A stretch of DNA of 34,151 bases, from assembly GCA_029212845.1 (NCBI GenBank), contig JARGPD010000032.1:1-34151 (forward strand), given 5' to 3'. A program made the position numbers and the translations under genes. Shown here in pieces: positions 6,153 through 24,248 of this stretch. The DNA comes from Planctomycetota bacterium. Its GTDB lineage: Bacteria; Planctomycetota; UBA1135; GCA-002686595. Numbering within the stretch: the stretch's first letter is position 1; each line of letters opens with the position of its first letter. The notes below the pieces were generated by a model. That model saw only the letters and a list, made by a program, of their open reading frames with translations, ran no database searches and had not been told where the DNA came from.

Positions 6153-7073
6153 CTAGGGCCAGGGGTCGCTGCCGAGGTGCCCTTCGAGGAAGCCGAGCAG
6201 CTCGCGCTCGTAGCGCGCCGGATCGGCGCGCTGCAGGTCGACATGGCCGGCGCCCTCGAAGAGCGCCATGGCCTTCGGCTGCGCGGCGGCCTCGAACAGG
6301 GCGCGGGTGGCGGCGGGCGGCGAGTAGGGGTCGGCGCCGCCGCCCAGCACCAGCACCGGGCAGCCGGCCGCGCCGATGCGCTCGACCGGCCGGAGCTCGT
6401 CGACCGAGACCCCGAGCCGCAGGGGCACCTGCACCGTCAAGAGCGGCGTGAGCAGGCGCGCCCAGCCGCCCATGTGGTGGTCGAAGCGGTCCGAGACCGC
6501 CTCCTCGATGCTGGCGAAGACCTGCTCGATGACGAGCGCGTCGATGCCCAGGGGACCGGCGAGCACCGCCGCCGCGCCGCCGAGGGACCAGCCGATCACG
6601 ACCACGGGCAGCCCGGGCTGGCGCGCCTTCGCGAAGGCCACCGCCGCGCGCGCGTCCTCGCGCTCGAGGTGGCCGAGGGTCACGCGCTCGCCGGGACTCT
6701 TGCCGTGGGCCTGCAGGTCGACGAGCACGCACGCGTAGCCCGCACCGGCGAGCAGCTCGGCCCGCCCCAGCATGGCGCGCCGGTCGCCCTCCTTGGGGTG
6801 CAAGAGCACGGCGACCCCGCAGGGCTCTTCGACGGGCAGGAACCAGCCGGACAGGGTCGCGCCCGAGGCGCTCTCCAGGGCGAGCTCTTCGACCGCGCGG
6901 TCGGGCTGCGACCAGGCCGGCGGCAGGCCGAAGGAGCGCGGGTTGGGCGCCACGAGTCGGCCGCCGGCCAGCCAGGAGAAGCCCAGGCCGGCGAACAAGC
7001 AGCCGCCAAGGCCGAGCGCCAGCCAGCGCCGCCGCCGCCCGGCGCGCACCTTGGGGGCTGGGCCCCTGCTCAC
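6153..7073 (-). CDS. Alpha/beta hydrolase, N-terminally membrane anchored
   Basis: GWSLGG nucleophile elbow, GGGADPYSP acid and GAGHVDL His in the expected order; hydrophobic N-terminus LALGLGGCLFAGLGFSWLAGG; GTG at 7073 chosen, upstream part of the 488-aa ORF has poor coding character. Confidence 0.75.
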   Translation of the reverse strand: MSRGPAPKVRAGRRRRWLALGLGGCLFAGLGFSWLAGGRLVAPNPRSFGLPPAWSQPDRAVEELALESASGATLSGWFLPVEEPCGVAVLLHPKEGDRRAMLGRAELLAGAGYACVLVDLQAHGKSPGERVTLGHLEREDARAAVAFAKARQPGLPVVVIGWSLGGAAAVLAGPLGIDALVIEQVFASIEEAVSDRFDHHMGGWARLLTPLLTVQVPLRLGVSVDELRPVERIGAAGCPVLVLGGGADPYSPPAATRALFEAAAQPKAMALFEGAGHVDLQRADPARYERELLGFLEGHLGSDPWP

Positions 7074-7300
7074 CGCCACCCCAGCGCCAGGGCACGGCGA
7101 GGCACCCGACCGAGCGTGCCGAGCGTGGTGGCGCCTGCGGTCACCCGGCCTCCAGGGCCGGCCGCGGGCCCCTGGAACCGCTCTGCATCGGAGGTCGTCA
7201 TGATCGCTGAGTGGAGTCAGCATAGCAGTCGCTGGGGACGTCCAGGTGCGCCTGCCCGGGGCCACGAGCCTGCTCGCCCCCAGAACTCCGGGCCCATTGC

Positions 7301-7359: not shown

Positions 7360-8403
7360 ATGAAAGCGGTCTCCTTCTCGCAGCATGGTTCCCTCGATGT
7401 CCTCGAATACGGGGACGTGCCCGACCCGGTGCTTGGACCCGGCGAGGTGCTGCTGCGTATCGAGGCCGCGGCCTGCAACTTCAACGACATCTGGGCCCGG
7501 CAGGGCCTGCCGCGGGTGACCCTGCCGCTGCCGCACGTGTCGGGCACCGATGCCGCCGGGGTCGTCGTCGCGATCGGCGAGGGCGTCACCGGCGTGGCGG
7601 TCGGCGACCAGGTCATCACCTACCCCGTGCGCGCCTGCCGCAGGTGCAACGCCTGCCTCGCCGGCGAGGAGGTCTTCTGCAAGGGCCTCAAGATCTGGGG
7701 CTTCCAGACCGGGCCCTTCGACGGGTCCTTCGCCGAGTACGCCAAGGTGCAGGTCGAGCAGGTGCTGCCCAAGCCCGCGCACCTCACGTGGGAGGAGGCC
7801 GCCGCGACGACCACGTCCCTCCTGTCGGTCTGGCGCATGCTCGTCACCCGCGCCCAGGTCCAGCCCGGCGACCAGGTCCTGATCTGGGGCGCGAGCGGCG
7901 GCACCGGCTCCTTTGCGATCCAGCTGGCCAAGGAGATCGGCGCGGTCCCGATCGCGGTGACCTCGTCCGAGGCCAAGGCGGAGTGGTGCTCCAAGATGGG
8001 CGCGACCCACGTGCTGCGCAGCGACTGCCAGGACATCCAAGCCGAGGTCGCCCGGCTGACCGATCGCCGCGGCGTCGACGTCGTCTTCGACCACGTGGGC
8101 GAGCCGGTCTGGTACACCAGCGTCGAGTGCCTGCGCTGGGGCGGCAAGATCGTGATCTGTGGCGCCACCGAGGGCTTCGAGGCCAAGATCGATCTGCGCT
8201 ACCTGTGGAACAAGCAGCTGTCGTTCCTTGGCTCCCACATCGGGACGCGCAAGGAGTGGGTCCAGGCGATGAAGCTGGTCGAAGCGCGCCGCATCCACCC
8301 GCCGGTCACCGAGATCTTCGACCTGCCGGGCGCCATCGAAGCCCAGCGCCGCATGGAGAACCGTCAGCTGATGGGCAAGCTCGCGATCCGGATCGGGTCA
8401 TGA
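7360..8403 (+). CDS. Zinc-type MDR alcohol dehydrogenase / enoyl reductase-like protein
   Basis: ADH-like GroES fold, CRRCNACLAGEEVFC structural-zinc cysteine spacing, VLIWGASGGTGSFAIQLAKEIGA nucleotide-binding motif. Confidence 0.85.
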   Translation: MKAVSFSQHGSLDVLEYGDVPDPVLGPGEVLLRIEAAACNFNDIWARQGLPRVTLPLPHVSGTDAAGVVVAIGEGVTGVAVGDQVITYPVRACRRCNACLAGEEVFCKGLKIWGFQTGPFDGSFAEYAKVQVEQVLPKPAHLTWEEAAATTTSLLSVWRMLVTRAQVQPGDQVLIWGASGGTGSFAIQLAKEIGAVPIAVTSSEAKAEWCSKMGATHVLRSDCQDIQAEVARLTDRRGVDVVFDHVGEPVWYTSVECLRWGGKIVICGATEGFEAKIDLRYLWNKQLSFLGSHIGTRKEWVQAMKLVEARRIHPPVTEIFDLPGAIEAQRRMENRQLMGKLAIRIGS

Positions 8404-9386
8404 CGAGCCACGTCCAGATCCTCGGAATCGGACACAGCACGCCGACCCAGGTGCTCACGAACGAAGCGCTGATCGCACGCTTTGGCCTGAAGGTCGATGC
8501 GGAGTGGATCGAGCAGCGCACCGGCATCCGGGATCGCCACTGGCTCCAGGACGGGGAGACGACCTCGGACCTCGCCGTTGCGGCGGCGGAGCTGGCCCTT
8601 GCCCAGGCCGGGGTCAGGAGCACCGAGGTCGAGCGCATCGTGCTCGCCACGATCTCGCCCGACCACCCGAGCCCGTCGACGGCGACGATCGTCGAGCGCA
8701 AGCTCGGCGCGCGCTGCGCGGCCTTCGACCTGTCGGCGGCCTGCGCCGGCTTCCTCTACGGCCTCGAGCTCGGCGCGATGTCCGTGCGTGCCGGCGCGCG
8801 CAACGTGCTCGTGATCGCCGCCGACGCACGCAGTCGCTTCATCGACAAGCACGACCCTCGCTCGGCCGTGCTCTTCGCCGACGGGGCCGCAGCGGTCCTG
8901 CTCGGGCCCGCCGATGCGCCTGGCCTGCTCGCGATCCACCTCGGCGCCGAGGGCCGCGAGCGCATGGGCGCACACATGCCCGCCGGTGGAGCAGCCATGC
9001 CGACCACCGCCGCCACCGTCGAAGCGGGCCTGCACTTCCTCGTCGTCGACGGCAAGCGCGAGATCTTCGACCTGTTCGTGGCCTACACCCGCGAGGCCTG
9101 TGACGCCGTGCTGTCCCAGGCCGGGATCACGATCGACGACGTCGACCTGTTCATCACCCACCAGGGCAACGCGCGCATGGTCGAGCTGACGGTCGGAGCC
9201 CTCGGTGTCGATCCGGCGCGCGCGATGAACAACATCGCCCACCACGGCAACACCTCGAGCGCGACGGTCCCGATCGCCCTCAGCGAGGCGATCGCATCCG
9301 GACGCCTCGCCAGCGGCCAGACCGCGCTCCTGACCTCGGTCGGCGCTGGCTACACCTTCGGCGCCGCCCTCTACCGCATGCCCTGA
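8400..9386 (+). CDS. 3-oxoacyl-ACP synthase III (KAS III / FabH family), catalytic triad intact
   Basis: TGIRDRHW; nucleophile DLSAACAGFLYG (Cys), FITHQGNARM (His), AHHGNTSSATVPIAL (Asn). Confidence 0.9.
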   Translation: MTSHVQILGIGHSTPTQVLTNEALIARFGLKVDAEWIEQRTGIRDRHWLQDGETTSDLAVAAAELALAQAGVRSTEVERIVLATISPDHPSPSTATIVERKLGARCAAFDLSAACAGFLYGLELGAMSVRAGARNVLVIAADARSRFIDKHDPRSAVLFADGAAAVLLGPADAPGLLAIHLGAEGRERMGAHMPAGGAAMPTTAATVEAGLHFLVVDGKREIFDLFVAYTREACDAVLSQAGITIDDVDLFITHQGNARMVELTVGALGVDPARAMNNIAHHGNTSSATVPIALSEAIASGRLASGQTALLTSVGAGYTFGAALYRMP

Positions 9387-10180
9387 TGCCGACCACCACC
9401 CACCAACGCACCGCGCTCGTCACGGGCGCCTCGCGCGGCATCGGTCGCGCCATCGCCCTCGAGCTCGCCCGGGGCGGCCACAGGCTGGTGTTGCACGAGC
9501 ACGAGCCCGGGAGCGGCGCCGAGACCGATGCGCTCCTGCGCGCGGCGCACAGCGAGCCGCGCTGGATCCACGGCGACCTGGCCCGTCCAGTTGGCGCCGG
9601 CGACACGGACGAGCCCGGCGGCCTCGGCGACCTCGCCGGGCTCGAGATCGACGTCCTGGTGCACAACGCCTCAGCCTTCGCACCCTATGGCCGAGTCGAG
9701 GACGGCGCGCGCGAGGCCGATGCCGAGGTGCTCGGGGTCGCCCTCACGGCCGGCATCGGTCTAGCCCGCGCCGTGACACCCGGCATGCGCGCGCGCGGCT
9801 TCGGCCGCTTGGTCTTCATCGGCTCTGCCGCCGGTCGCCTCGGCGCCGCCGGGCAGGTTGCCTATGCGACCGCCAAGGCCGGCCTGCTCGGGCTGACCCG
9901 CAGCCTCGCGGTCGAGCTCGGCCGCGCCGGCATCACCTGCAACCTAGTCGAGCCCGGCCTCATCGACACCGAGCGCACCCGCGCGGCGCTCTCGGGCGCC
10001 CAGTTCCAAGCCCTCGCCGCATCCACGCCGGTCGGCCGCGCCGGGAACCCCGAGGAGCTCGCGCGGCTCGTGGCCTTCCTCGCCAGTGACGACGCGGGCT
10101 ATGTCACCGGCGCGGCGATCCCCGCGGATGGCGGCCTCGGCCTCGGGGTCGTGCCACGCAACCAAGAGCCGCCGTGCTGA
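9386..10180 (+). CDS. SDR family oxidoreductase, FabG-like
   Basis: TGASRGIGRA cofactor motif, VHNAS, Ser-VAYATAK (YxxxK) active site, VEPGLIDT. Confidence 0.9.
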   Translation: MPTTTHQRTALVTGASRGIGRAIALELARGGHRLVLHEHEPGSGAETDALLRAAHSEPRWIHGDLARPVGAGDTDEPGGLGDLAGLEIDVLVHNASAFAPYGRVEDGAREADAEVLGVALTAGIGLARAVTPGMRARGFGRLVFIGSAAGRLGAAGQVAYATAKAGLLGLTRSLAVELGRAGITCNLVEPGLIDTERTRAALSGAQFQALAASTPVGRAGNPEELARLVAFLASDDAGYVTGAAIPADGGLGLGVVPRNQEPPC

Positions 10181-11724
10181 TCCAAGACCTGCTCGAGCGC
10201 AGCGTCCAGCTGTTCCCGCACCGCACCGCCGTCGACGACGGCGAGCGCCGCTGGAGCTTCACCCAGCTGCGCGACCAGGTCTGCAACCTCGCAGCTGCCC
10301 TCACCCGCGCGGGCGTCGAGGCCGAGGACCGGGTCGCGCTGCTCAGCCGCAACCGCGCCGAGTACGTCGCCCTGTACTTCGCTGCCGCTCGACTCGGCGC
10401 CGTGCTCGTACCGCTCAACTGGCGCCTGACCCCGCCCGAGCTGGCCACGATCCTCGGCGACGCCGGGCCCGAGCTCGTCCTGGCCGAAGCCGAGCTCGCA
10501 CCGCGGCTCGAAGGTTGCGCACATGTGGTCCTCGGGCAGCTGCTCGGGGAAGGGCCAGACGCACCGGCCGACCCTCGCGATGGGCGTGGACGTCGCGCGG
10601 CTTCCTGGCAGCCCAAAGAGCCCAGCTCCGACGCCGCGGTCGCCGTGCAGATGTACACGTCGGGCACCTCGGGCCGGCCGAAGGGTGCCATGTTGACCCA
10701 CCGCAACTGCCACAGCATGACCAGCGCGTGGCTGCTCGACATGCCCCTCGATGCCGGCGACCGCTTCCTCCAGGTCACGCCGCTCTTCCACGTCGGCGGC
10801 CTCCTGATGCTGCTGTCCTGCGTCGCGAGCGGCGCGACCCTGCGGCTCCTGCCGGAGTTCGATCCCGTGGCCGCCATCGACGTGCTCAGCGGCGAGCCGA
10901 CGACCCACACCTTGATGGTGCCGGCCATGCTCGAGTGGCTCCTGGCCGAGCCCTACCTCGTGGGCAAGCAGCTCGCGCACCTCCGGCTGGTCGTCTATGG
11001 TGCCGCGCCGATCCCGCCAGCGACCCTCGAGCGTGCGCGCGCGCGGCTCGCCTGCGACTTCCTCCAGGGCTACGGCCTGACCGAGAGCACCGGGGTCCTG
11101 TTGACCCTGACCCCGCGCGACCACCGCGAGGGCGATGCGGTGCGCCTGGCCTCGGCCGGCCGCGCTGCGCCCGGCTGCTTGGTGCGCGTGGTCGACCGGA
11201 ATGGCGAGGAAGTCGAGGCCAGTGAAGATGGCCAGCCCGGTGAGGCCGGCGAGATCGTTGCCCGCGGCGACAACCTCTCCCCCGGCTACTGGAACGACCC
11301 GGACGGAACCGCCGCCGCCTGGACCGACGGCTGGTTCCACACCGGGGACCTCGCGCGCATCGACACCGCGGGCTACATCACCATCGTCGATCGCATCAAG
11401 GACATGATCCTGGTCGGCGGCGAGAACGTCTACCCGCGCGAGGTCGAGCTCGTGCTGCTCGAGCACCCCGACGTGCGCGACGCTGCGGTCGTCGGCATCC
11501 CCCACGACGTCTGGGGCGAGGAGGTCCTTGCGCTAGTCGTGCTCGAGCCGGGAAGGACCCAGACCGACCGCAGCCTGACGAGTCACTGCCGCGGCGCTCT
11601 GGCCCGCTACAAGTGCCCCACCCGCTTCCAGTTCCCTGGCGAGCTGCCGCGCAACGCCGCCGGCAAGCTCATGAAGAACGAGCTGCGTGCTCCCCACTGG
11701 CAAGGACGGCCCCGCCTCGTATGA
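10174..11724 (+). CDS. AMP-dependent acyl-CoA/acyl-ACP synthetase (ANL superfamily)
   Basis: YTSGTSGRPKGAMLTH (A3), GYGLTESTG (A5), GWFHTGDLARID (A7), IKDMILVGGENVYPREVE (A8), and C-terminal GK Lys; GTG start overlapping the SDR stop. Confidence 0.9.
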   Translation: MLIQDLLERSVQLFPHRTAVDDGERRWSFTQLRDQVCNLAAALTRAGVEAEDRVALLSRNRAEYVALYFAAARLGAVLVPLNWRLTPPELATILGDAGPELVLAEAELAPRLEGCAHVVLGQLLGEGPDAPADPRDGRGRRAASWQPKEPSSDAAVAVQMYTSGTSGRPKGAMLTHRNCHSMTSAWLLDMPLDAGDRFLQVTPLFHVGGLLMLLSCVASGATLRLLPEFDPVAAIDVLSGEPTTHTLMVPAMLEWLLAEPYLVGKQLAHLRLVVYGAAPIPPATLERARARLACDFLQGYGLTESTGVLLTLTPRDHREGDAVRLASAGRAAPGCLVRVVDRNGEEVEASEDGQPGEAGEIVARGDNLSPGYWNDPDGTAAAWTDGWFHTGDLARIDTAGYITIVDRIKDMILVGGENVYPREVELVLLEHPDVRDAAVVGIPHDVWGEEVLALVVLEPGRTQTDRSLTSHCRGALARYKCPTRFQFPGELPRNAAGKLMKNELRAPHWQGRPRLV

Positions 11725-11972
11725 AGACGCCCCCGACGCTCCCCACGGTCCTCGCTCTGCTCGAAGAGGCGACCCTCGCCGAAGAGGGCACGATCGATCC
11801 CGAAGCGCCGCTGCTCGGCATGGAGGGCTGGGACTCGATGGGCATGGTCATGTTCATCGCGCTCGTCCAGGACCACCACGGCTTCGAGCTCTCGATCACC
11901 GACCTGCGCGACTGCGTGTGCGGCAACGAGCTCTTGGTGGTCATCGCCGAGCGCGCCCGGGAACCGTCATGA
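11721..11972 (+). CDS. Discrete acyl carrier protein
   Basis: 83-aa protein; GWDSMGMVMF matches the 4'-phosphopantetheine Ser site (DSx), small acidic helical protein; ATGA overlap on both sides. Confidence 0.8.
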   Translation: MKTPPTLPTVLALLEEATLAEEGTIDPEAPLLGMEGWDSMGMVMFIALVQDHHGFELSITDLRDCVCGNELLVVIAERAREPS

Positions 11973-13003
11973 CCTCGGGCGTGCGGCTGATCGCGAGCGC
12001 GGCCTCTGGTCCCGTCGACCTGGTCGGCGCGGCCGCACGGGTCGACAACCAGGCGCTCTTCGACCGCGCGCCCGTGCTGGCGCGCCACTTCGACCTGGAC
12101 CAGCTCGAGGCGCGCTTCGGAGTGCGCTCCCGCCAGTGGACCCGCGGCGTCGGGCTGGACGAGTCCGACCTGGCCCTGGGCGCGGTCCGCAGCCTGCTCG
12201 CCAAGGCCGCGCGGCGCCCGGACGAGCTCGCGCTCCTGATCGCGGTCACGTCGACGCCGAGCCGCGCCACCAGCTCGCTCGCCGGGCGCGTCGCGCGCGG
12301 ACTGAGCCTAAGCTGCCCGAGCTTCGACCTGCGCGCCGGTGGCGCAGGAGCGCTCTTGGCCTGGCGCGCCGCCGAGCGCTGGCTGGCCGGCACCCATGGC
12401 CTCGCCGTCGTGGTCGCCGCCGAGTCGATCTCGCCCTGGCTCGAGCTCGATACCGCGGCACCCACGCCGATCCTCTTCGGCGATGGCGCTGCTGCGATCC
12501 TGCTCCAGGGCGCGGCCGCGCAGCCCGGCCTGCTGGCCTTCGAGGGGCGCACCGACGCCCCCGCCGGCCAGGCCTTCACGGTGCCGGCGCCCCTGCCTCC
12601 TGGGCCGGACTCGACCCCCACAGACTTCTGCTTCCAGGACGCCGACCGCACCTACGCCGGCGCGATGGGCGAGCTGCGCGCCGCGCTCTGCTCGCGCCTC
12701 AGGGCGGCCCACGAGCTCGCCGCTACCGAGCGCGGCCTGCCGGCATCGATCGACGCCTTCTTCCCGATGGCGCCGAGCCTCGCGAGCGCCAGCGCCCAGG
12801 CCGATGCCTTCGGAGTCCCCGCCGAGCACACGCACACCTGCCTCCTCGACTGGGGCTGCCCCGGCGCCGCCGCGCCGCTGATCGCCCTCGCGGCGACCGA
12901 CCTGACCCAGCCCAAGACGCTCGCCCTCGCCGCCGTCGGAGGTGGCGCCCACGGCGCCGCGCTGACCTGGCGCCACTCGCCCCCCACCCAGGACTGCCCG
13001 TGA
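11969..13003 (+). CDS. KAS III-like (thiolase-fold) protein with degenerate catalytic triad
   Basis: KAS III layout (FGVRSRQW, FGDGAAAILLQG, FFPMAPS, LDWGCPGAAAPLIAL) but Cys, His and Asn sites all substituted relative to the 8400 gene. Confidence 0.8.
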   Translation: MTSGVRLIASAASGPVDLVGAAARVDNQALFDRAPVLARHFDLDQLEARFGVRSRQWTRGVGLDESDLALGAVRSLLAKAARRPDELALLIAVTSTPSRATSSLAGRVARGLSLSCPSFDLRAGGAGALLAWRAAERWLAGTHGLAVVVAAESISPWLELDTAAPTPILFGDGAAAILLQGAAAQPGLLAFEGRTDAPAGQAFTVPAPLPPGPDSTPTDFCFQDADRTYAGAMGELRAALCSRLRAAHELAATERGLPASIDAFFPMAPSLASASAQADAFGVPAEHTHTCLLDWGCPGAAAPLIALAATDLTQPKTLALAAVGGGAHGAALTWRHSPPTQDCP

Positions 13004-14733
13004 CCCTTCGACCCGTTGACGGCCTCTTCATCTCCTACTACGAAGACATCGACCGCTGGGGCAACGACCACGCGCCGAGCCGCTCCGGTCCGACCGGGTC
13101 GCCGGCATACCTGGCGGCCGAGGCGGGCTCCGGCAAGGACACCCTGACCCACCGCATGGGTCGCCAGAGCGTCGGCATCGACGGCATGAACCACGACATC
13201 GCGCGCTACCTGTCGCGGGCGCGCTATGGCACGTCGATCGAGTACCGCCGCTACGACGCCTTCTCGCCGACGCACCTGAGCGGCGCGTACTACGAGTCGC
13301 TCGCCAAGCGGCACGGCTATGACCTGCACCACATCAACCACGCCTCGCGGGTCGACCTCGAGCGTCTCGCGCCGCAGCTAGCGCCGCGCTTCGTGTTCCT
13401 CTCGACGACCTACATGACCGAGACCTCGATGGCCCTCGACGCCGCCCAGCACGTGCGCGCGAACTGGCCCGGCGTGCCGGTCATCATGGGCGGTCTGGTC
13501 CTGGTCGAGCTCGAGAAGAGCCTGCCCGACGCGGTCTTCCAGACCTTCCTCAAGGCCTGGGGTGCCGACGCCTACGTGATCACGCCGCTGGGCGAGGCGG
13601 CCTTCCTGCGCCTGCTCGAGAGCGACGGAACCGACATCCCCGGGCTCCGCCTGCCCAAGACCTGGGTCCTGCGCGACGGACGCTACGCCGTCGACGCGAC
13701 GATCGAAGAGCCCGGGCTCGACATCAACGAGAACCACGTGCGCTGGGAGCTGCTCGACCCTGAGCGCTTGTACCACACGGTGCACACGCGCACGGCGCGC
13801 AGCTGCGCCTTCACCTGCGCCTTCTGCAGCTACTTCTCGAACCAGGGTCCGCTCGTGCTGAGCGACCCAGCCACCCTCGACATGGAGCTGCAGCGCCTGA
13901 GCTCGGTCGGCAGCGTGAAGAGCCTGATCTTCACCGACGACACGCTCAACGTCCCGATGCCGCGCTTCCTCGAGCTGCTCGAGGTGCTCAAGCGCTACGA
14001 CTTCGAGTGGTACTCCTACTTCCGCGCGCAGTTCGCCGACGAGGACTGCGCCAAGTCGATGATCGACTCGGGCTGCAAGGCGGTCTTCCTGGGCATCGAG
14101 TCCCTCGACGACAAGGTGCTGAAGAACATGAAGAAGGCCGCGACCCAGAAGGCCTACACGCGCGGCATGCGGGCGCTCAAGGCGGCCGGCATCCACACCC
14201 ACGCCAACTTCATCGTCGGCTTCCCCGGCGACCGGCCCGAGAACACGAAGGCGGCCATCGACTGGGTCGACGGCGAGGGCGTCGAGTTCTTCACGTTCAG
14301 CCCGTGGTACTGCTCGCCCGCGACGCCGATCGGCAAGCAGGAGCAGAAGGACAAGTACGGCGTGCGGGGCAACTTCTGGCGCTGGGAGCACGACACGATG
14401 AACTCGAGCCAAGCCCTCGAGCACGAGATCTGGGCGATCGAGAACGCCAAGTCCTCGGTCTTCGTCTCGGAGCTCTCCGCCCAGTGCTTCTGGTCCGAGA
14501 TCCAGCTGTACGCCAACGGCTTCTCCGCCGCCGAGATCCAACAGCTGATGACCTCGTTCAACGGGCTCGCCGGCAGGAACAGCCACATGGGCGACGTCCA
14601 GGAGCTGCCCGCGTACCAGGAGACCCAGCGCATCCTGCACACCCGCGAGCTGCCGGTCCCCCCGGGCTGCGAGCTGTACCGCACCGAGGTCGAGTCGCGC
14701 GCCACGATCGACCGGGCGACCGCCAAGGCATGA
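13000..14733 (+). CDS. B12-binding-domain radical SAM protein (resembles PhpK-family methyltransferases)
   Basis: CAFTCAFC = CxxxCxxC SAM cluster; N-terminal region with VPVIMGG and GADAYVITPLGEAAF typical of a cobalamin-binding domain; FTDDTLNVPMPRF, FLGIESLDDKVLKNMKK. Confidence 0.8.
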   Translation: MTLRPVDGLFISYYEDIDRWGNDHAPSRSGPTGSPAYLAAEAGSGKDTLTHRMGRQSVGIDGMNHDIARYLSRARYGTSIEYRRYDAFSPTHLSGAYYESLAKRHGYDLHHINHASRVDLERLAPQLAPRFVFLSTTYMTETSMALDAAQHVRANWPGVPVIMGGLVLVELEKSLPDAVFQTFLKAWGADAYVITPLGEAAFLRLLESDGTDIPGLRLPKTWVLRDGRYAVDATIEEPGLDINENHVRWELLDPERLYHTVHTRTARSCAFTCAFCSYFSNQGPLVLSDPATLDMELQRLSSVGSVKSLIFTDDTLNVPMPRFLELLEVLKRYDFEWYSYFRAQFADEDCAKSMIDSGCKAVFLGIESLDDKVLKNMKKAATQKAYTRGMRALKAAGIHTHANFIVGFPGDRPENTKAAIDWVDGEGVEFFTFSPWYCSPATPIGKQEQKDKYGVRGNFWRWEHDTMNSSQALEHEIWAIENAKSSVFVSELSAQCFWSEIQLYANGFSAAEIQQLMTSFNGLAGRNSHMGDVQELPAYQETQRILHTRELPVPPGCELYRTEVESRATIDRATAKA

Positions 14734-15929
14734 AGCCCGAGGTCGAAGCGAGCATCCGCGCCGAGTGGCGGGCGGCGCGGGCGCGGCCGGGTGCCGCGGG
14801 CGGCGGCTTCCAGGTCGCCGGTGACGTCTACAACGACTCCGAGCTGGCCGAGCGCGAGCGCCACCTGGTCTTCGCCCGGGCGTGGCTGCCGATCTGCCGG
14901 GCCAGCCAGGTCGAGGCCCCCGGCAGCTACCGCACCGCCGACCTCGCGGGGACGCCGATCGCGGTCGTGCGCTCGCTGGGGTCGGGGCAGCTGCGGGCCT
15001 TCCTCAACGTCTGCCCGCACCGCGGCAACCAGCTGCTGCGCGCGGCAGAGGGCAGCCTCGCGGACCGCGACGGCGTCGTTGCCTGCGCCTACCACGGCGC
15101 GGCCTTCGACGCGGGCGGCCAGGACGAGGGCGATCGGCAGCGACCGTTCGGCGCGATGGTCCCGGGCTCGGGCGGCTTCCAAGGGAGCGAGCTCGGGTGC
15201 CTCGAGGCGCTCGCGGTGGAGAGCCACTGGGGCTGGGTCTGGGTCCGCCGCAGCGGCACGATGTCCCTGGCCGACTTCCTCGGCGAGGAGCTCGCCGACG
15301 AGCTGGCTGGTTGGGACCTCTTGCGCGCCGCGCTGCACCGCAGCCACAGCTTCGAGGGGGCCTTCGACTGGAAGGTCGGGGTCGAGGCCTTCCTCGAGTC
15401 GATGCACCTGCCGACGATCCACCGGCGCACGGCGGCGCCCCTGCTCGACCACATGGCCACGGCCCAGGCGCAGCTCGGCAGCCACTCGCGCATGAGCACG
15501 CCCTTCCGCATGCCCGGCGCCTATGGCCCCGACGGCCTGCTCGGCAGCGCCGCCGCCGAGGCTGGCGTCGGGCTCTTCCCCGGGCTCAACGAGGTCCAGC
15601 GCACGAGCAATTTCAGCTACCTGCTGTTCCCCAGCACCGTGCTGAACCTCCTGCCGACGCACTTCACCTTGTTCCGCATCCTGCCCCTCGGCCTCGAGCG
15701 CTGCCGCGTCGAGTACGAGCTGTACGCGGCTCCGACGAGCACGCCGGCCCAGGCGGCCTACGTCGACTCGCTCGACCCCGGCTACCTGCAGCTGCTCGAC
15801 GAAGACCTCGACAACCTGGCCTGGATCCAGCGCGGCGTGCGCCACGGGGACCGGCCGCTGCTCACGCTGACCTCCCAGGAGCGGCGCATCCTGCACTTCC
15901 GCGAGACCCTCGCCGCCTGGATGGCCTGA
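14730..15929 (+). CDS. Rieske [2Fe-2S] aromatic-ring-hydroxylating oxygenase-type alpha subunit
   Basis: CPHRG...CAYHG Rieske ligands and VEAFLESMHLPTIH mononuclear-iron site. Confidence 0.88.
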   Translation: MKPEVEASIRAEWRAARARPGAAGGGFQVAGDVYNDSELAERERHLVFARAWLPICRASQVEAPGSYRTADLAGTPIAVVRSLGSGQLRAFLNVCPHRGNQLLRAAEGSLADRDGVVACAYHGAAFDAGGQDEGDRQRPFGAMVPGSGGFQGSELGCLEALAVESHWGWVWVRRSGTMSLADFLGEELADELAGWDLLRAALHRSHSFEGAFDWKVGVEAFLESMHLPTIHRRTAAPLLDHMATAQAQLGSHSRMSTPFRMPGAYGPDGLLGSAAAEAGVGLFPGLNEVQRTSNFSYLLFPSTVLNLLPTHFTLFRILPLGLERCRVEYELYAAPTSTPAQAAYVDSLDPGYLQLLDEDLDNLAWIQRGVRHGDRPLLTLTSQERRILHFRETLAAWMA

Positions 15930-15941
15930 CCCGCGGACCGG

Positions 15942-17357
15942 ATGTCCTTCGCCAGCTCCCCCTACCTGCTCTTCCTGGCCCTGGTCCTGGCCGCCTTCCC
16001 GTTCCTGCCCCGGCGCGGGCGCGTGTGGGGCATGCTGCTGGCGAGCTACCTGTTCTACTTCGGGCAGCAGCCGCTGCACATCCTGGCGCTCTTCCTGTCG
16101 ACCCTGCTCGACTTCGGCGTCGGCCTGGCCCTGGCTCGCTCGACCGAGCCACGCGCGAGGCTGCGCTGGCTGCTGCTGAGCCTCGTCGTCAACGTCGGCG
16201 CGCTGGTCGGCTTCAAGTACACCGGCTTCCTGGCGGAGACCTGGAACCTGACCGGCGAGCACCTCGGCCTGGCCCTGCCGGTGCCCGACTGGGCCCTGCC
16301 GCTTGGCATCTCCTTCTACACCTTCCAGACGATCGGCTACACGATCGACGTCTACCGGGGTCGCATCGAGGCCTGTCGCAGCCTGGCCGACTACGGCCTC
16401 TACGTGGCCTTCTTCCCGCAGCTCATCTCGGGTCCGATCGAGCGCGCCGAGCACCTGCTGCCCCAGCTGCGCAACATGCAGCCGCCGACATCAGGCAACC
16501 TGTCGGTCGGCCTGCGCCGCATGCTGTGGGGCCTGTTCAAGAAGGTCGTGCTCGCCGACCGCTTCCGGCCGCTGGTGCTCGGCAACCTAGCCGACCCCGG
16601 TGGCCTCGACAGCATGACGCTGGGTGCCAACAGCCTTGGCCTCTTGGCGCTCTTGTACCTGGACTTCAGCGCCTACACCGACCTCGCCCGCGGCAGCGCG
16701 CGCCTGTTCGGGGTCGAGCTGGTCCAGAACTTCGACCGCCCCTTCGCGGCGACGTCGCCGGCCGACTTCACCCGCCGCTGGCACATGTCCCTGATCCGCT
16801 GGATCGAGGTCTACCTTTACGCTCCGCTGCTGCGCGGCCGCCTGACCCACGCCAAGATCTGGGGCACCAACACGCTCCTGATCGGGCTGTTCGGCCTGTG
16901 GCACGGTCCCTTTGCCAGCTACCTGATCGGCGGCGTCTGCCTCGGCGCCTGCATCTCCGTGCAGCAGAGCCTGCGCCTCTGGGCGCACCAGCAGCGACGG
17001 CGCCCGAAGCCGCTCGGCCCCGCCGCTGCCCTCGCCGGTTGGGCCCTGACGATGGCGATCTGGTCCCTGTTCGTGGTCGCGCTCTTCGCGCCCGACTCGG
17101 GCCAGGCTGGCGCCTACTACGCCGCGCTCTTCACCCCGAGCCTGCCGAGCGCTGGGCAGCTGCCGGGCCTCGCGACTGCCTTCGCGCTGATGGCCCTAGC
17201 CCTTGGGGTGCACCTCGCCGCGGGCCGCATGGACCTCGACCGCGCCTGGTTCCGACTGCCGCGCGCCCTGCGCCCGGCCCTCTTGCTGCTCGGCGCCTGG
17301 GGCATCGCGCGCTTCGCCGCTCCGGCCTCCGAGGCCTTCATCTACTTCCGCTTCTGA
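15942..17357 (+). CDS. MBOAT family O-acyltransferase (AlgI/DltB-like)
   Basis: Multi-TM protein; PLGISFYTFQTIGYTIDVYRG, FFPQLISGPIERAEHLLPQL, DFTRRWHMSLIRWIEVYLYAPLL, GLWHGP (MBOAT His). Confidence 0.92.
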   Translation: MSFASSPYLLFLALVLAAFPFLPRRGRVWGMLLASYLFYFGQQPLHILALFLSTLLDFGVGLALARSTEPRARLRWLLLSLVVNVGALVGFKYTGFLAETWNLTGEHLGLALPVPDWALPLGISFYTFQTIGYTIDVYRGRIEACRSLADYGLYVAFFPQLISGPIERAEHLLPQLRNMQPPTSGNLSVGLRRMLWGLFKKVVLADRFRPLVLGNLADPGGLDSMTLGANSLGLLALLYLDFSAYTDLARGSARLFGVELVQNFDRPFAATSPADFTRRWHMSLIRWIEVYLYAPLLRGRLTHAKIWGTNTLLIGLFGLWHGPFASYLIGGVCLGACISVQQSLRLWAHQQRRRPKPLGPAAALAGWALTMAIWSLFVVALFAPDSGQAGAYYAALFTPSLPSAGQLPGLATAFALMALALGVHLAAGRMDLDRAWFRLPRALRPALLLLGAWGIARFAAPASEAFIYFRF

Positions 17358-18430
17358 TGGCAGCCACCTCCACCCGTCGAGCCCGCATCGCGGTGCTCCT
17401 GGTCGTCGCTAGCCTCGTGGCCGGCGAGGTCCTGCTGCGTGCCACGGCCGACCTGCGCAGCCTGGCCCAGACGCCCGATCCCGAGCTCGGCTGGCTGCTG
17501 CGCCCGAACTTCGACGGGCGTCTCGAAGGAGCCCGCGTGCAGACCAACTCGGACGGCTTCCGCGGGCCCGAGTGGTCCGCGCCAGAAGACGGCGGCCAGC
17601 CCGAGCCCACCGGCGACGTGCCCCTGCGCATCGCCGTGCTGGGCGACTCGGTGGCCTTTGGATTCGGGGTCGAGCACGAAGAGCTCTTCGCGGTGCAGCT
17701 CGAAGCGCGGCTCGCCGCCAGCCTGGGCGAGGGGCGCGTCGAGGTGCGCAACTTCGCCCTGCCCGGCAAGTGCTGGACCCAGATGCGCGCGATCCACGAC
17801 CGCTACGTCGCGCCCTGGCAGCCCGACGTCGTGGTCGCCATGCTGAACGACGCGTCCCACCGTCCGCCCATGCCGATCGAGCCGCGCACCTGGAGCGACG
17901 CGCTGCTCGCGGAGTCGGCCCTGCATGCGGCCTGGGAGGCCAGCCTCGAGCTGGGGCCGAAGCTCGAGCTGTGGAGCGCGCCGCCCGTCCGCAGCCCGGC
18001 CTGGCGACGCAGCTACGACTGCCAGCGCTTCCCCTTCGCCCTGCGCAACCGCGAGCCGTTCGTCGCCATGACCGAGGACCTCGCCCGCCTGCGCGGCCAG
18101 CTCGCGGAGCGGGGCTCCCAGCTGCTGCTCGTGGCCCTGCCCCAACAGGCTCACTTCCGCGAGCACCCGGACAGGCGCCTCGGCCTGTTCTTCCAGAAGC
18201 ACGCTGGGCAGCTCCAGCTCGCGCTGATCGACCCCGCGGTGCGCTTCCGCGCATGGGCCAGGACCGCGAGCGCGAGCCCAGCTGCGCGTGCCGCCAACGC
18301 GGCCGGTCCGGAGCCTACGTTCGGCCGCGAGCTGTTCCTCGCCCACGACCCTGATCACTGGTCCCCCGCAGCCCACGCCCTGATGGCTGACGTCGTGTCC
18401 GAGACGCTGCTCACTCGGCAGGAGCCGTAA
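17357..18430 (+). CDS. SGNH/GDSL hydrolase-like protein, membrane anchored
   Basis: N-terminal TM/signal; VLGDSVAFGFGVE (block I GDS) and HDPDHWSPAAHALMADVV (block V DxxH); TGATG overlap with MBOAT stop. Confidence 0.8.
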   Translation: MAATSTRRARIAVLLVVASLVAGEVLLRATADLRSLAQTPDPELGWLLRPNFDGRLEGARVQTNSDGFRGPEWSAPEDGGQPEPTGDVPLRIAVLGDSVAFGFGVEHEELFAVQLEARLAASLGEGRVEVRNFALPGKCWTQMRAIHDRYVAPWQPDVVVAMLNDASHRPPMPIEPRTWSDALLAESALHAAWEASLELGPKLELWSAPPVRSPAWRRSYDCQRFPFALRNREPFVAMTEDLARLRGQLAERGSQLLLVALPQQAHFREHPDRRLGLFFQKHAGQLQLALIDPAVRFRAWARTASASPAARAANAAGPEPTFGRELFLAHDPDHWSPAAHALMADVVSETLLTRQEP

Positions 18431-18440: not shown

Positions 18441-21206
18441 ATGTCCCTGCTCCTCGCTCCGCTCTTCGCGCTGGTCCTCCAGGGGCCGCTCAACGTCCAC
18501 CAGCCCGGTCCGAGTACGGGCTATGGACTGGCCGTGGCCGTCTCCGATGACGGTGCCGAGCTGCTGCAAGCGCGCGGGCCCGAGCTCTGGCGGCTGGACT
18601 TCGCGCGCATTCGCGCCGAGGTGCGCGCTCCCGCGGGCGACTCCGACACACCCTCCGACGCGCCCTCCGACGCCCCCTTCGAGGTCCACGACGCGCTGCT
18701 GCAGCGGGTCGCGCTCGACGTCCCGATCCGCGCTCTTCGCTCGTTGCCTGGTGGCGGCGTGCTCGTCGCCGGCGGCGACGGCGGGCTGCTCTTCGTCGGG
18801 CGCGACGGCGGCCAGCGATTGCTCGACGAGGCGCCGGACGGGCGCTGGTGCGTGGACCTGGACCTGACGCCCGAGCACCTAGTCGTGCTCTGGAGCGGCT
18901 GGGACGACAGCCTGCTGCGCAGCTACGACCTCGCCGGGCTCGACACCACGGCGCGCGAAGACCGAGCAGGAGCGCCGGCAGAGTCTCCCCGCGCGAGGAC
19001 CGGTGGCGCGGCCCTCGACACACCACTCACCCAGCTCGGCGAGGCCCGCTTGCGCTCGCGTTCCAGCGGCGGCGACCTGCGCCATCCCGCGAACGGCCTG
19101 GCGTGCCGCGTCCACGACGGCCAGGTCTATGTGGCCATGGGCGGCAGCGGCGTGGCCCGCGTGGCCTTGTCCGCGTCGGGCGAACTCGGCGCCGTCGAGC
19201 AGGGCCCGGTGTTCCACCCCGAGGCCGGCGCCGAGCGCGCCAGGCGCGAGCGCTTCCGTGCCAGGGACCTCGACATCGCGGGAGGCGTGCTCTATGTCGC
19301 CGCCGACGAAGCTGGCCTGGTCGTGCTGCCGCTCGATGCCCTCGAGCGCTGGACCGAGCAGACGCCCTACACGCGCCACGGGCAGGACCCGGGCCCTGCC
19401 CACCGGTCGAGCTCGCCCAGCTTCCTGCGCGGCCCCGGCTACCGCAGCCATGCCGTGCGCGTCGAGGCCGAGCTCGACGACCGGGGCCGCACCCTGGTCG
19501 CCGTCGGCGCCCTGCCCACGACCAGCGCCGAGGTCGAGTGGGGTCCCTACCGCAGCTACACGACGTTCACTTGGGACCTGCGTCCCGCGGCCATCGCTCC
19601 GGACCCTGCGATGAAGGGCAAGGGCGTGCACCTGCAGCTCTTCGAGCGACGCGCTGACGGTCAGCTGGTGCCTGGCAGCGACCACGGGTCGAGTCGTAGC
19701 GCGAGTCATGGTGCGAGCCCACGAAGCGGCGCGCGACTGCACCTCGCCCAGGTCCGCGAGATCACCGACCTGCCCCAGGTCTGGGCCGGACTCGCCATGC
19801 ACATCGAGCCGGGTGGGCGCGCCTGGTTCGTGGACCACGCCCTGACCATGCAGCATGTCGAGCGCGCCGACGGCGAACTGCAGCCGATCGTCCCGGTCCC
19901 CGTGGAGATGCTCGCCGACGACCGGCCGCTCTTCACCCTCTACACGACGGCCAGCTTCTCGCGCGTCGACCCGAGCGTGCTGTTCACCGCCGTCGACGGC
20001 TGGGAGACCCTGCCCCACCTGCGGCTCGTCGGCAGCTACCCGAACGTCGCCCTCGAGCCGATCCCCGGCAGCGAGTCCCTGCGCCTGCCGGTCTTCGTCC
20101 AGGGCTCGTGGATCGAGGCGCCGCCCAGCGGTGGTCCGGCCCCACCGGAGGAGTGGCTGGTGGCCGGCATGGACTCGCCGTGGATCCTGAACCGCGTGCG
20201 CCATACGGCCGAGGGCTTGGACATCGCGAGCTGGGAGCTGCCCTTCGACGTCGCCGGCGAGCAGCCCTGCGGCACCGACGGCGGCCGCGGTCGGTCGTAC
20301 GCGGCGGCGGCCATCGACCCGGCCAGCGACCTGATCGCCCTCTCGCGCTCGAGCGTCGACCATGGGGTCAGCCTCTACTCGCGCGCGGCCTTGGTCGCCG
20401 CGGCGCGCGCCCAAGAAGTCCAGCCGATGGCCGCGCGCCAGCTCACCGCCTGCCAGCCCCTCGGTCACCTCGACACCAACCCCGAGGTCACCTGCGACTA
20501 CGCGAAGTCGCTCGCCTTCCGCTCGGGCTTCTTCCCCTGGCGCTCGGGCGAGGACGAGTCCGTGCTCGCGATCGCCGCCGGCAGCTACCTCGACCCACGG
20601 TCGCCCCACTACCAGCTGCCGAAGCTCGCCCTCTTGCGCGTGGACCCTGCCGCGCACCTCACCACCGGTTCGCCGCCAAGCGCGGTCCCGGGCTCCACGA
20701 ACACGACCCTGCTCGTCGGCTCGGGCCGTCGGGGCCTCGCCTTCTCCTTCGCCATCGCCGAGCTCGAGGGGACGCAGTACGCCTTCGTCGGCGACTCGGT
20801 CGGTGGCCTCGCTGCCTTCGACCTGACCGGCGCCTTCGGCGGCGCCGAGGGCGAGCCCTTCACGGTCCTCGGCGAGGTCGCGCGCTGGGACCTGCCACGC
20901 TCCACCTTGGACGGCCTGGGCGCGCCCCTGACCGACGTGATCGCGCGGACCGAGGTCAAAGGAGCGCGCCGCGAGGCCAGCCTGCACCTGTACGTCGCCG
21001 CCAGCCGCTGGGGCGTCGCGCGCTTGGCGGTCACGTCCACCGGCGACCCGCGCGCCCCGCTCGCGATCGAGCTGGCCGAGCGCCTCGCGACCCCGATGCA
21101 GGCCTCGGGCCTGACCCTCACGTCCATGCCCGAGACGGGTGAGCCCGTGCTCGCCGTCTCGGACCACGACGGCACGACCGTGCGCCTGTACACCGAAGCC
21201 CCCTAG
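18441..21206 (+). CDS. Large secreted protein of unknown function, beta-propeller-like
   Basis: 921 aa, signal-like MSLLLAPLFALVLQG, repeated blade-like segments (e.g. GVLYVAADEAGLVVLPLDAL, YAFVGDSVGGLAAFDLTG); begins 10 bp after the SGNH stop. Confidence 0.65.
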   Translation: MSLLLAPLFALVLQGPLNVHQPGPSTGYGLAVAVSDDGAELLQARGPELWRLDFARIRAEVRAPAGDSDTPSDAPSDAPFEVHDALLQRVALDVPIRALRSLPGGGVLVAGGDGGLLFVGRDGGQRLLDEAPDGRWCVDLDLTPEHLVVLWSGWDDSLLRSYDLAGLDTTAREDRAGAPAESPRARTGGAALDTPLTQLGEARLRSRSSGGDLRHPANGLACRVHDGQVYVAMGGSGVARVALSASGELGAVEQGPVFHPEAGAERARRERFRARDLDIAGGVLYVAADEAGLVVLPLDALERWTEQTPYTRHGQDPGPAHRSSSPSFLRGPGYRSHAVRVEAELDDRGRTLVAVGALPTTSAEVEWGPYRSYTTFTWDLRPAAIAPDPAMKGKGVHLQLFERRADGQLVPGSDHGSSRSASHGASPRSGARLHLAQVREITDLPQVWAGLAMHIEPGGRAWFVDHALTMQHVERADGELQPIVPVPVEMLADDRPLFTLYTTASFSRVDPSVLFTAVDGWETLPHLRLVGSYPNVALEPIPGSESLRLPVFVQGSWIEAPPSGGPAPPEEWLVAGMDSPWILNRVRHTAEGLDIASWELPFDVAGEQPCGTDGGRGRSYAAAAIDPASDLIALSRSSVDHGVSLYSRAALVAAARAQEVQPMAARQLTACQPLGHLDTNPEVTCDYAKSLAFRSGFFPWRSGEDESVLAIAAGSYLDPRSPHYQLPKLALLRVDPAAHLTTGSPPSAVPGSTNTTLLVGSGRRGLAFSFAIAELEGTQYAFVGDSVGGLAAFDLTGAFGGAEGEPFTVLGEVARWDLPRSTLDGLGAPLTDVIARTEVKGARREASLHLYVAASRWGVARLAVTSTGDPRAPLAIELAERLATPMQASGLTLTSMPETGEPVLAVSDHDGTTVRLYTEAP

Positions 21207-21440: not shown

Positions 21441-22199
21441 ATGCAACGACTCCTCGCCCTGCCCGCCCTGGCGCTCCTGACCCTGGCCATGCGCTCCTCC
21501 CTCGAGCCCGCTCCCACCGCAGCCTTCGCCGCCGGGCCGCCCGCGGTCTGCTTCCCGATCGACCTCGGCGACGACCAGGCGATCCCCGAGAGGTTCGGCG
21601 AGGGCTTCGGGCCCGACCAGCTGGTCAGCCGCATGCACGCCGCGCTCGAGGGCTCGGACCGTACCCTGGTCCACATGGAGACCCTGCGCTGTGCGACCTG
21701 GTCGATCCTGAACATGACCAAGGGCCAGGGTGTGACCAAGGAAGGGCTCGGCCACGCGGTGACCTCGCACCTGCGCTGGCGGCTCGTGCGCGCCCTCGCC
21801 GACGAGCGCGCCCGTCGCGAGGCTGGCCTGCCCGCACCCGAGGGGCAAGAGCGCGAGCTCGGCCTTGCGTGGTTCGACCTGGCCTACTTCCAAGGCGCCA
21901 TGGGCCAGGCCTTGCGCTTCGAGACCGCGGGCTGCGAGGACGCCATGTCCCAGGCCATGCAGCTCCTGCCCAAGGACGCGTCGGCCCAGTTCGGCTGCGC
22001 CCTAGCCCTGTGGGAGTCCGACCAGTACGGCGAGCTGGGCTTCTACCCGCGCCTGCGCAGGGCCCTCGACCTCGAGGCCGCCGGCCATGGGGACGCGCAG
22101 CTGCTGGAGAACATGCTCAACACCTGCGGTCACCTGATCGGGACCGAGGACCGCGCCGCCATGGACGCCAAGGTCAACGCCAGGCTTGCGGGCGAGTGA
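21441..22199 (+). CDS. Hypothetical secreted protein
   Basis: ATG 21441 with signal peptide MQRLLALPALALLTLAM...TAAFAAG; helical mature region; no family recognised. Confidence 0.6.
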   Translation: MQRLLALPALALLTLAMRSSLEPAPTAAFAAGPPAVCFPIDLGDDQAIPERFGEGFGPDQLVSRMHAALEGSDRTLVHMETLRCATWSILNMTKGQGVTKEGLGHAVTSHLRWRLVRALADERARREAGLPAPEGQERELGLAWFDLAYFQGAMGQALRFETAGCEDAMSQAMQLLPKDASAQFGCALALWESDQYGELGFYPRLRRALDLEAAGHGDAQLLENMLNTCGHLIGTEDRAAMDAKVNARLAGE

Positions 22200-22266
22200 C
22201 GCCAGCAGCGGGTCGGCGCCACGCGGCGTCGGCTCGAGCGAGGGCCCTGGGAGGGAGCCGCCTGGG

Positions 22267-23091
22267 GTGAGCAAGGTCGCCGAGGTTGGGGTCGTGCAGG
22301 ACGGCGGCATGGGCCCCGCGTGGACCTCCCAGGTCCGCGCGGCCCAGTCCGGCGACCGCGAGGCCTTCCGCGAGCTCTACACCCGCTTCGCGCCGATGGT
22401 CCACGCCGTCGCGCTCGGCAGCGTCGACTGCCACGCCGCCGACGACGTCACCCAGGAGGTCTTCCTCGGCGCCTGGCGCTCCTTGGCCGACCTGCGCGAG
22501 CCCAGCCGCTTCGGCGGCTGGCTGGCCAGCATGGCCAGGCGCCGCGCCCTGCGGGTCGCGACGTCGAGCGCCCGCAAGCGCGAGCGCAGCAGCGGCACAG
22601 CGGCCGAGGTCGAGGCGACCGCCGGGTTTGGGATCGCCAAGATTGCGGCCGGCTCCGACCGCACTGGGCCCCATCCGCTTGGCAGCGCGACCGAACGAGC
22701 AACAGCCACCGACTCCCCAACCATCGATGAGGTCCTCACCCACCTTGCGGCACTCCCAGAAGCCCTGCGCATGCCCCTGACCCTGCGACTCGTGGAGGGC
22801 CTGTCCGGCATCGAGATCGCGACCCTGCTCGACCGGCCTCCCGGCTCCGTGCGCGTCAGCCTGCACCGTGGCATGCAGAAGCTGCGCGAGCGCCTGGGGG
22901 TCGCGCCCTCCACGAGCCCCCCCGGACCTGGGAACGAGTCCTCGCCGACCAGCAGCACCAAGCCGGGGGGCCACACCACGCCGCCGGACAGCACCGCGCC
23001 GAACCACAGCGCTCCGTCGGCGGACAGCACGCCGCGACCCGAGCGATCCAAGCCCTCGGACCAACCTGGCCCGAACCGAAGCCAAGCATGA
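22267..23091 (+). CDS. ECF-type sigma-70 family RNA polymerase sigma factor with Pro/Ser/Thr-rich C-terminal tail
   Basis: DREAFRELYTRFAPMVHAVAL, DDVTQEVFLGAWRSLADLREPSRFGGWLASMARRRAL (region 2), LTLRLVEGLSGIEIATLLDRPPGSVRVSLHRGMQKLRERL (region 4); GTG 22267 chosen as start. Confidence 0.85.
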   Translation: MSKVAEVGVVQDGGMGPAWTSQVRAAQSGDREAFRELYTRFAPMVHAVALGSVDCHAADDVTQEVFLGAWRSLADLREPSRFGGWLASMARRRALRVATSSARKRERSSGTAAEVEATAGFGIAKIAAGSDRTGPHPLGSATERATATDSPTIDEVLTHLAALPEALRMPLTLRLVEGLSGIEIATLLDRPPGSVRVSLHRGMQKLRERLGVAPSTSPPGPGNESSPTSSTKPGGHTTPPDSTAPNHSAPSADSTPRPERSKPSDQPGPNRSQA

Positions 23092-24248
23092 AGACCCCCG
23101 ACGACTCCATCTGGGACCCCGCCACCCCGCCGAGCGAAAAGACACCCGACCTGGTCGAGCTCGAAGCCCTGCTGGCCCCCGCCCGCTGGAGCGGTGAGCT
23201 GCCCGAGCTGCCCCACCACGCACCGGCCAGCGCCCCTCCACCACGCCCCACCCCGACCACGACGCGACGCCCCTCCGCCCGCCCGAGCCGCACCCCGCTG
23301 GTCAGCCCAGCCGCCTGGGCCTGCCTGGCCGCCGCCGCGGCCGTGATCGCGGTCATGGTCTGGTGGCCCTCGCCCCTTGGGCCCGGCTCGGGCGCGAAGA
23401 AGCCCCAGCAGCTCGCGCGCCTCGGCTCGCCCTACACCCTCCAGCACGTCGCCGGCCAGCTGCTCGTCGGCCCCAGCGACTCGAGCACGGGCGGCACCAA
23501 GCCCCCAGGCGCACCAGCCAGCCCCGGCCTCCAGCCTTGGCCTGCGTCGGGCAAGTCCACGGCCGCATCCCTCGCCGTCGGCGAGCGCATCACCACCGGC
23601 CCAGGCGGCCGCGCCGTGCTGCACATCGACGGGCTCGGCACGCTCGAGCTCGAGGCCGACACCGCGCTTGCGATCCTCGATCCCGCCGTCGACGGCGCCA
23701 GCGATGACTTCGATGCCCCCGCCGCGTCCCTGCTCTCCCTCGAGCGCGGCGCCGTCGAGGCCGTGATCCTCGCCAGCCCCGGCGCCTTCCAGGTCTTCAC
23801 GCCCGCGGGCCTGTCGGTCGATCTCGGCTGCATCTACCGCGCCGAGGTCACCGAGTCCGGCACCACGCGCCTCTCGGTCAGCACCGGCCGCGTCGCCTTC
23901 GAGGGCGCAGGCCGCCGCGTCTTCGTGCCCGCCGGTTCCGCCATCGAGGCCGAGCCCGGCGGCGCGCCGTCCACACCCCTGCGCACCGACGCCTCGGCAC
24001 GGCTACGCACCCTCGTCGCCCAGGCCGACCGCGACGGCGACCTCGATCCGGATGCAACCGCGTCCCTGCTCAACGCCGCCACGCCCTCCGACGCAATCAC
24101 GCTGCTGCACCTCTTGCACCTCCCCAGCGCCGGCCCCGAGCTGTTCGAGCACCTGCGCGCGCTCGAGCCCCTGCCCCGGGACACGACCCGCGAAGCCGCC
24201 CTCGCCGGCGACCCCGCAGCGATCGAGTCCTGGTCCTGGCGGCTGTAG
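23088..24248 (+). CDS. FecR domain-containing protein (putative anti-sigma/sigma regulator), single TM
   Basis: ATGA overlap with sigma stop; TM AAWACLAAAAAVIAVMVWW; FecR-like VGERITTGPGGRAVLHIDGLGTLELEADTALAIL ... FQVFTPAGLSVDLGCIYRAEV. Confidence 0.8.
   Translation: MKTPDDSIWDPATPPSEKTPDLVELEALLAPARWSGELPELPHHAPASAPPPRPTPTTTRRPSARPSRTPLVSPAAWACLAAAAAVIAVMVWWPSPLGPGSGAKKPQQLARLGSPYTLQHVAGQLLVGPSDSSTGGTKPPGAPASPGLQPWPASGKSTAASLAVGERITTGPGGRAVLHIDGLGTLELEADTALAILDPAVDGASDDFDAPAASLLSLERGAVEAVILASPGAFQVFTPAGLSVDLGCIYRAEVTESGTTRLSVSTGRVAFEGAGRRVFVPAGSAIEAEPGGAPSTPLRTDASARLRTLVAQADRDGDLDPDATASLLNAATPSDAITLLHLLHLPSAGPELFEHLRALEPLPRDTTREAALAGDPAAIESWSWRL

Follow-up and report, generated by a model that had tools for sequence, protein, structure and literature searches.

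An eleven-gene planctomycete operon that may supply a self-made acyl group to an MBOAT-SGNH relay

The 34,151-nt stretch of planctomycete DNA analyzed here (the window; approximately 72% GC) comes from a 4.68-Mb draft genome that is 88% complete, and it carries a tightly packed run of same-strand genes in which enzymes of fatty-acid type are followed by radical-SAM and Rieske enzymes, an MBOAT and an SGNH protein. What these genes build together, and where the product is delivered, is the question raised by this locus.

Layout of the operon and its conservation in relatives

The ten ORFs of the original prediction are open in frame on the plus strand with a GC3 of approximately 0.9, and their domain labels are found again at the domain level, with weak matches for the B12, second KAS III and SGNH assignments. 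The predicted junctions are exact, with spacings of -4, -1, -7, -4, -4, -4, -4, +12 and -1, which correspond to seven overlaps of 1-7 bases, a 12-bp gap and a 1-base overlap. A convincing hydrolase ORF on the minus strand (6153-7190) runs the opposite way upstream, so the operon starts at 7360. The operon itself stands with its ten genes, but a co-directional eleventh gene (18441-21206, plus strand), which begins 10 bp after the stop of the SGNH gene, had been missed. The 921-residue product of this gene is secreted-looking with a signal-like N-terminus, and a Pfam scan assigns it to no family; it seems to consist of weak repeats and mostly of beta structure, but the structure predicted for it is too poor to rely on (pLDDT 40). 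Homologues of the eleventh gene lie beside an MBOAT or SGNH gene in the genomes G035, G036 and G004.

Several other genes are present in the window. Upstream, a secreted-looking M60 (enhancin-like) metallopeptidase is encoded at 1601-3826. Downstream of the operon, an ECF-type sigma factor is followed by a FecR-domain protein (22186-24248) and by a large secreted-looking protein (24475-27384) with many DxDGDxD repeats, as seen by eye, and a DCNQNGVHD stretch, where GC falls to 66%. A multidomain PKS (AMP-binding, ACP, KS, AT, ACP) occupies 27995-34117 on the minus strand and continues to contig position ~34570; a run of N just past the window end breaks its frame, and the first domain thus looks truncated, while its C-terminal end consists of two tandem repeats of ~130 residues each without a Pfam match. 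This PKS was rejected as a member of the system because no matching multidomain PKS lies near any other cluster.

A search with the radical-SAM protein of the operon in 81 genomes of the same family reveals close relatives in 10 genomes from nine genera (this one included), with 44-55% identity over nearly the full length; an eleventh genome (G031) gives a weak match only. The 154 genomes of the order add no further relative outside the family, nor does a 399-genome sample of the phylum. Among the matches listed for public named genomes, the same planctomycete clusters are recovered and elsewhere only distant radical-SAM relatives; the named relatives in these matches are Planctomycetota metagenome-assembled genomes. 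The matches from beyond the phylum, in Acidobacteriaceae (38%), Magnetovibrio (31%) and Kordia (27%), were rejected as carriers of the same cluster because their neighborhoods differ. In the Acidobacteriaceae metagenome-assembled genome, which holds the nearest non-Planctomycetota radical-SAM protein (38%) among the matches listed, a Rieske protein is found one ORF away and the rest of the neighborhood is different (L041:8247-11653).

In the gene orders that follow, < and > denote strand changes, rSAM denotes radical SAM and pKS3 denotes the pseudo-KAS III. The order is eleventh-gene homologue > < MBOAT rSAM rSAM pKS3 ACP ligase SDR KAS III MDR SGNH in G004, and < pKS3 KAS III SGNH, eleventh-gene homologue >, < MBOAT MDR, ligase ACP rSAM rSAM > in G035, with G036 the same as far as seen. 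G079 carries SGNH KAS III ligase ACP pKS3 rSAM Rieske MBOAT, and G053 carries MDR KAS III SDR ligase ACP pKS3 (inserted ORF) rSAM Rieske. Two clusters are split between contigs: in G034, one contig holds KAS III ligase ACP pKS3 and the start of an rSAM, and another the remainder of an rSAM, a second rSAM and MBOAT; in G047, ligase ACP pKS3 rSAM rSAM and SGNH KAS III MBOAT are separated. KAS III pKS3 rSAM is found at a contig edge in G075, and KAS III rSAM Rieske in G044. The SDR and MDR are absent from some clusters, in part owing to contig ends. The ORF inserted in the G053 cluster between the pKS3 and radical-SAM genes encodes an eCIS-core domain (PF13699; L032:3715-5403, G053:C245), and the second radical-SAM gene of G047 contains one in-frame TAG (G047:C51:4989-6632), which indicates a pseudogene or an assembly error.

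The cluster is conserved but patchy within the family. Routine scattering of the homologues in related genomes had been named as the observation that would speak against an operon, and the genes are instead found to travel together. The contiguity of the same genes in other genera of the family indicates that the operon is more than chance, and the maintenance of linkage while order and strand change argues that the genes share a function and do not merely persist as a frozen operon.

Acyl-building and tailoring enzymes

The first gene (7360..8403) encodes an MDR enoyl-thioester reductase (Pfam ADH_N/ADH_zinc_N) that resembles crotonyl-CoA carboxylase/reductase. In a residue alignment to 6na3, the CO2 pocket retains its Asn, Phe and His, and the Glu (Glu171) is replaced by Gln, a replacement present in all five MDR homologues, within a WGFQTGP stretch in 5 of 5. 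The residue types of the CO2 pocket in crotonyl-CoA carboxylase/reductase are Asn, Phe, Glu and His (PMC10176493). The Gln for Glu replacement, together with a TIGR01751 score of 284.8 bits that lies under the cut-off of 378.6, led to the rejection of a crotonyl-CoA carboxylase role, and plain enoyl reduction is more likely than carboxylation.

The following four genes encode candidates for the activation and extension of an acid. A FabH-like KAS III (8400..9386) scores 317 bits against PRK09352 (cut-off 249) and retains its Cys-His-Asn residues in intact catalytic motifs (AACAG at 113, THQGN at 253 and HHGN at 281). A FabG-like SDR ketoreductase (9386..10180; adh_short_C2, 153.7 bits) has homologues in G004 and G053, only some clusters having an SDR. 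The AMP-forming acyl ligase (10174..11724) is of FadD type, with 303 bits against AMP-binding and 491 bits against the long-chain fatty-acid ligase model PRK06187, above the cut-off of 476; the ligase gene adjoins that of the ACP in eight clusters. The ACP (11721..11972; PP-binding, 25.8 bits) carries its serine in a DSM motif, with WDSM/WDSL unchanged in eight homologues, and PPTases are present in the genome. No dehydratase gene is found in the cluster. The predicted activation of a carboxylic acid, its loading onto the ACP and its reductive and oxidative tailoring fit the putative functions of these gene families.

The sixth gene (11969..13003) gives a weak KAS III match and encodes a pseudo-KAS III (pKS3). 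In all seven homologues, the catalytic Cys is a Gly within the motif D-x-R-(A/G)-G-G-A (D-x-R-A-G-G-A in the window), and other residues stand in place of the catalytic His and Asn. A pKS3 model run against the 81 genomes scores 192-520 bits in nine, all on contigs with the radical-SAM gene, and at most 131 bits for every other match; those of the latter that were examined are ordinary KAS III. The gene is thus present in nine of the ten radical-SAM genomes and in none of the others (naive p ~4e-11, kinship ignored). The gap in scores and the co-location with the radical-SAM clusters indicate that pKS3 is a separate family, which is confined to the cluster within the genomes of this family. 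Chain extension by a pair of KAS III enzymes, as originally proposed, holds for the first, which is intact; the second is a conserved pseudo-enzyme, and a simple pair is unlikely. A putative partnership of pKS3 with the intact KAS III would resemble that of PqsB with PqsC. A literature search for Cys-less KAS III-like proteins, so worded, gave no paper.

The predicted B12/radical-SAM gene (13000..14733) encodes a radical-SAM protein, and its assignment can be refined, in that the nearest family is that of the PhpK methyltransferase. The protein scores 341 bits against TIGR04479 (PhpK family; cut-off 600), its relatives 354 and 370, and the next family 71; TIGR04072 reaches 64 bits only. The radical-SAM motif CAFTCAFC lies at 269, and the B12-binding match is weak (25 bits, cut-off 32.1). 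Unlike the PhpK P-methyltransferase, the enzyme of these clusters has no phosphonate context and is often tandem-duplicated. The Rieske non-heme iron oxygenase (14730..15929; Rieske, 58 bits; Ring_hydroxyl_A, 84.7 bits) has homologues in G079, G053 and G044. Modification by a Rieske enzyme fits the operon as predicted, but the gene is optional: in the clusters seen, it never accompanies a second radical-SAM gene, and that second enzyme stands in its place in half of them. In a tree of the radical-SAM proteins, the first and second copies of the two-copy clusters form separate groups with supports of 100/99 and 100/100, which points to one old duplication behind this cluster type rather than repeated ones; the copies from Rieske-type clusters, which are single, lie outside both groups.

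The MBOAT-SGNH pair

The MBOAT (15942..17357) gives a domain match of 62 bits and has only DltB among its PDB relatives. Its catalytic His321 lies in GLWHG and is invariant in six cluster MBOATs, and each of the seven cluster MBOATs examined ends in FIYFRF or FVYFQF. These endings fit FXYXXF, the motif by which MBOAT-SGNH acyltransferases of the cell envelope shuttle the acyl group (PMC12148441). In the Dlt system, FXYXXF of DltX receives D-Ala from DltC via DltB, and PatA is auto-acetylated on the Tyr of its FXYXXF before the SGNH partner transfers the group to the polymer (PMC12148441). The partner gene in the operon (17357..18430) matches Lipase_GDSL_2 weakly (E 2e-7), and the predicted structure of its product, a putative SGNH acyltransferase/esterase, shows an SGNH fold and an N-terminal membrane helix at moderate confidence (pLDDT 69). 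Ser98, Asp331 and His334 (Ser and Asp-x-x-His) are invariant in five homologues, and in six genomes the SGNH gene either adjoins the MBOAT gene or has another place in the cluster.

Judged from the sequence, the C-terminal FIYFRF of the MBOAT, with the adjacent SGNH partner, is the best clue to the function of the operon. FXYXXF is general to bacterial MBOAT-SGNH pairs and is uninformative on the identity of the acyl group. O-acylation at the membrane, as originally predicted, fits these features, but a pair of the trans-membrane acyl-relay kind points to an acceptor in the envelope and not to a free lipid-type metabolite. No other MBOAT was found by a search of this 88%-complete genome. In the radical-SAM-less genomes G019, G020, G024 and G025, the nearest MBOATs are accompanied by an SGNH gene only and are, by their gene content, ordinary two-gene acylation units; the cluster consequently looks like such a pair to which an acyl-building cassette has been added.

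A second cluster in G053 (G053:C53:1-15000, L034) contains genes for a PhpK-like radical-SAM enzyme, MaoC dehydratase, SDR, KAS III, thiolase, MDR and an MBOAT ending in FLYFQF, with a possible SGNH-like ORF. It is a related combination that occurs a second time and is differently built.

Possible function of the operon

The MBOAT-SGNH pair and the ligase-carrier pair together suggest a logic like that of the Dlt pathway, loaded with a home-made acyl group, and we give an even chance to the reading that the operon acylates the envelope with an acyl group of its own making. A carboxylic acid would be activated by the FadD-type ligase and placed on the ACP of the operon, and the intact KAS III would condense the acyl group with malonyl-ACP. 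The keto group would then be reduced by the SDR and the enoyl group by the MDR, with dehydration by a housekeeping enzyme, while pKS3, without catalysis of its own, may partner the KAS III, hold the acyl-ACP or serve in docking. The PhpK-like B12-dependent enzyme would methylate an unactivated position, and the Rieske enzyme, or in other clusters the second radical-SAM enzyme, would follow, with hydroxylation as the putative Rieske step. Motif, position and co-conservation suggest that Tyr468 in the FIYFRF of the MBOAT receives the acyl group, whose donor is most likely the ACP, in the manner of DltC and DltB, and that the SGNH protein takes over the group on the outer side of the membrane to esterify a polymer or glycolipid of the cell surface. 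A role on the outer side is also probable for the secreted 921-residue protein. The acyl donor could instead be a CoA ester, since the Pat, Alg and Wss MBOATs, which carry their own motif, are believed to draw on acyl-CoA and the ligase is similar to acyl-CoA ligases. The cluster contains no genes for polysaccharide synthesis or glycosyltransferases, which counts against this reading, as do the lack of a dehydratase and the absence of the SDR and MDR from some clusters.

A comparison with the Dlt pathway (DltABCDX, teichoic acid D-alanylation) reveals an AMP-ligase, a carrier protein, an MBOAT, an SGNH protein and a Tyr shuttle motif in common. The differences are that the ligase is of FadD type and not DltA, no DltA model being among its best 25 NCBIfam matches; that the ACP has no NCBIfam match; and that the MBOAT itself carries the shuttle motif, whereas in Dlt it lies on the separate DltX, for which, as a small ORF, there is no room between the genes of the operon. 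Additionally, the operon contains seven further genes, mostly for acyl building and tailoring, and its host is a planctomycete, whereas Dlt belongs to Gram-positive bacteria. The PatAB, AlgIJX and WssHI O-acetylation systems share an MBOAT with its own C-terminal FXYXXF and an SGNH partner, but these systems use acetyl-CoA and, unlike the operon, lack a ligase, ACP and condensing enzymes of their own. The relay itself is of a known kind, and its combination with acyl-building genes is what appears new; this gene combination was not found in the literature searched, the scope of which left out most subscription journals.

The same genes could instead make a diffusible natural product or lipid, with the acyl-ACP as its backbone and the MBOAT and SGNH proteins acetylating, acylating or releasing a small molecule, a possibility that we regard as doubtful. 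KAS III, SDR, MDR, ligase, ACP, radical-SAM and Rieske enzymes are common in natural-product clusters, the patchy distribution and the split into two types resemble secondary metabolism, and the second G053 cluster combines a PhpK-like radical-SAM enzyme with KAS III, SDR, thiolase, MaoC and MBOAT. However, exporter and resistance genes are absent, an MBOAT with FXYXXF beside a membrane-anchored SGNH protein is a signature of envelope polymer acylation, and this pair occurs cluster-wide, whereas the SDR and Rieske genes do not.

It is unlikely that the product is an unusual membrane lipid, in which a branched, hydroxylated fatty acid would enter phospholipids or ornithine-type lipids. KAS III, the FabG-like SDR and the FadD-type ligase are fatty-acid enzymes, and radical-SAM enzymes are known in lipid clusters, e.g., the ladderane candidates (PMC2649909), but a phospholipid acyltransferase and a dehydratase are lacking, as are the fabF paralogues of the ladderane clusters and phytoene-desaturase-like genes, and the MBOAT-SGNH pair is the sole acyltransferase. 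Like the operon, the anammox ladderane candidates are planctomycete clusters in which fatty-acid enzymes occur with an acyl ligase and radical-SAM enzymes; these clusters are defined by fabF paralogues and phytoene-dehydrogenase-like genes (PMC2649909), and the low TIGR04072 score of the operon is a further difference. A ladderane-type lipid cluster was rejected, as neither fabF paralogues nor phytoene-desaturase-like genes are present in the operon or were noticed among the scanned ORFs of the other clusters. P-methylation of a phosphorus compound by the PhpK-like enzyme is very improbable: TIGR04479 is by far the nearest family, but its score of 341 falls well short of 600, no phosphonate gene is present in any cluster seen, and the sole PEP-mutase candidate, which matches only in part (56 bits) and lies next to malate synthase A, is probably an isocitrate lyase.

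Acylation of the envelope with a self-made group leads to the predictions that the ligase loads the ACP, that Tyr468 is acylated and that an odd acid is present in an envelope hydrolysate. Tentatively, and with somewhat less assurance than for envelope acylation as such, we propose a new class of envelope decoration in Planctomycetota in which an ACP-fed MBOAT-SGNH relay would transfer a de novo acyl group methylated by a PhpK-like enzyme; a dedicated family of dead KAS III proteins would partner the acyl-ACP, and two tailoring modules, Rieske or second radical SAM, would be interchangeable. MBOAT-SGNH relays are known for small stock groups, i.e., acetyl and D-alanyl. If the proposal is true, a bespoke methylated and hydroxylated acyl group, built on a carrier and passed to the relay, would widen the range of cell-surface decorations, a function would be given to the PhpK-like radical-SAM branch outside phosphonate chemistry, and a new family of inactive KAS III proteins would be defined.
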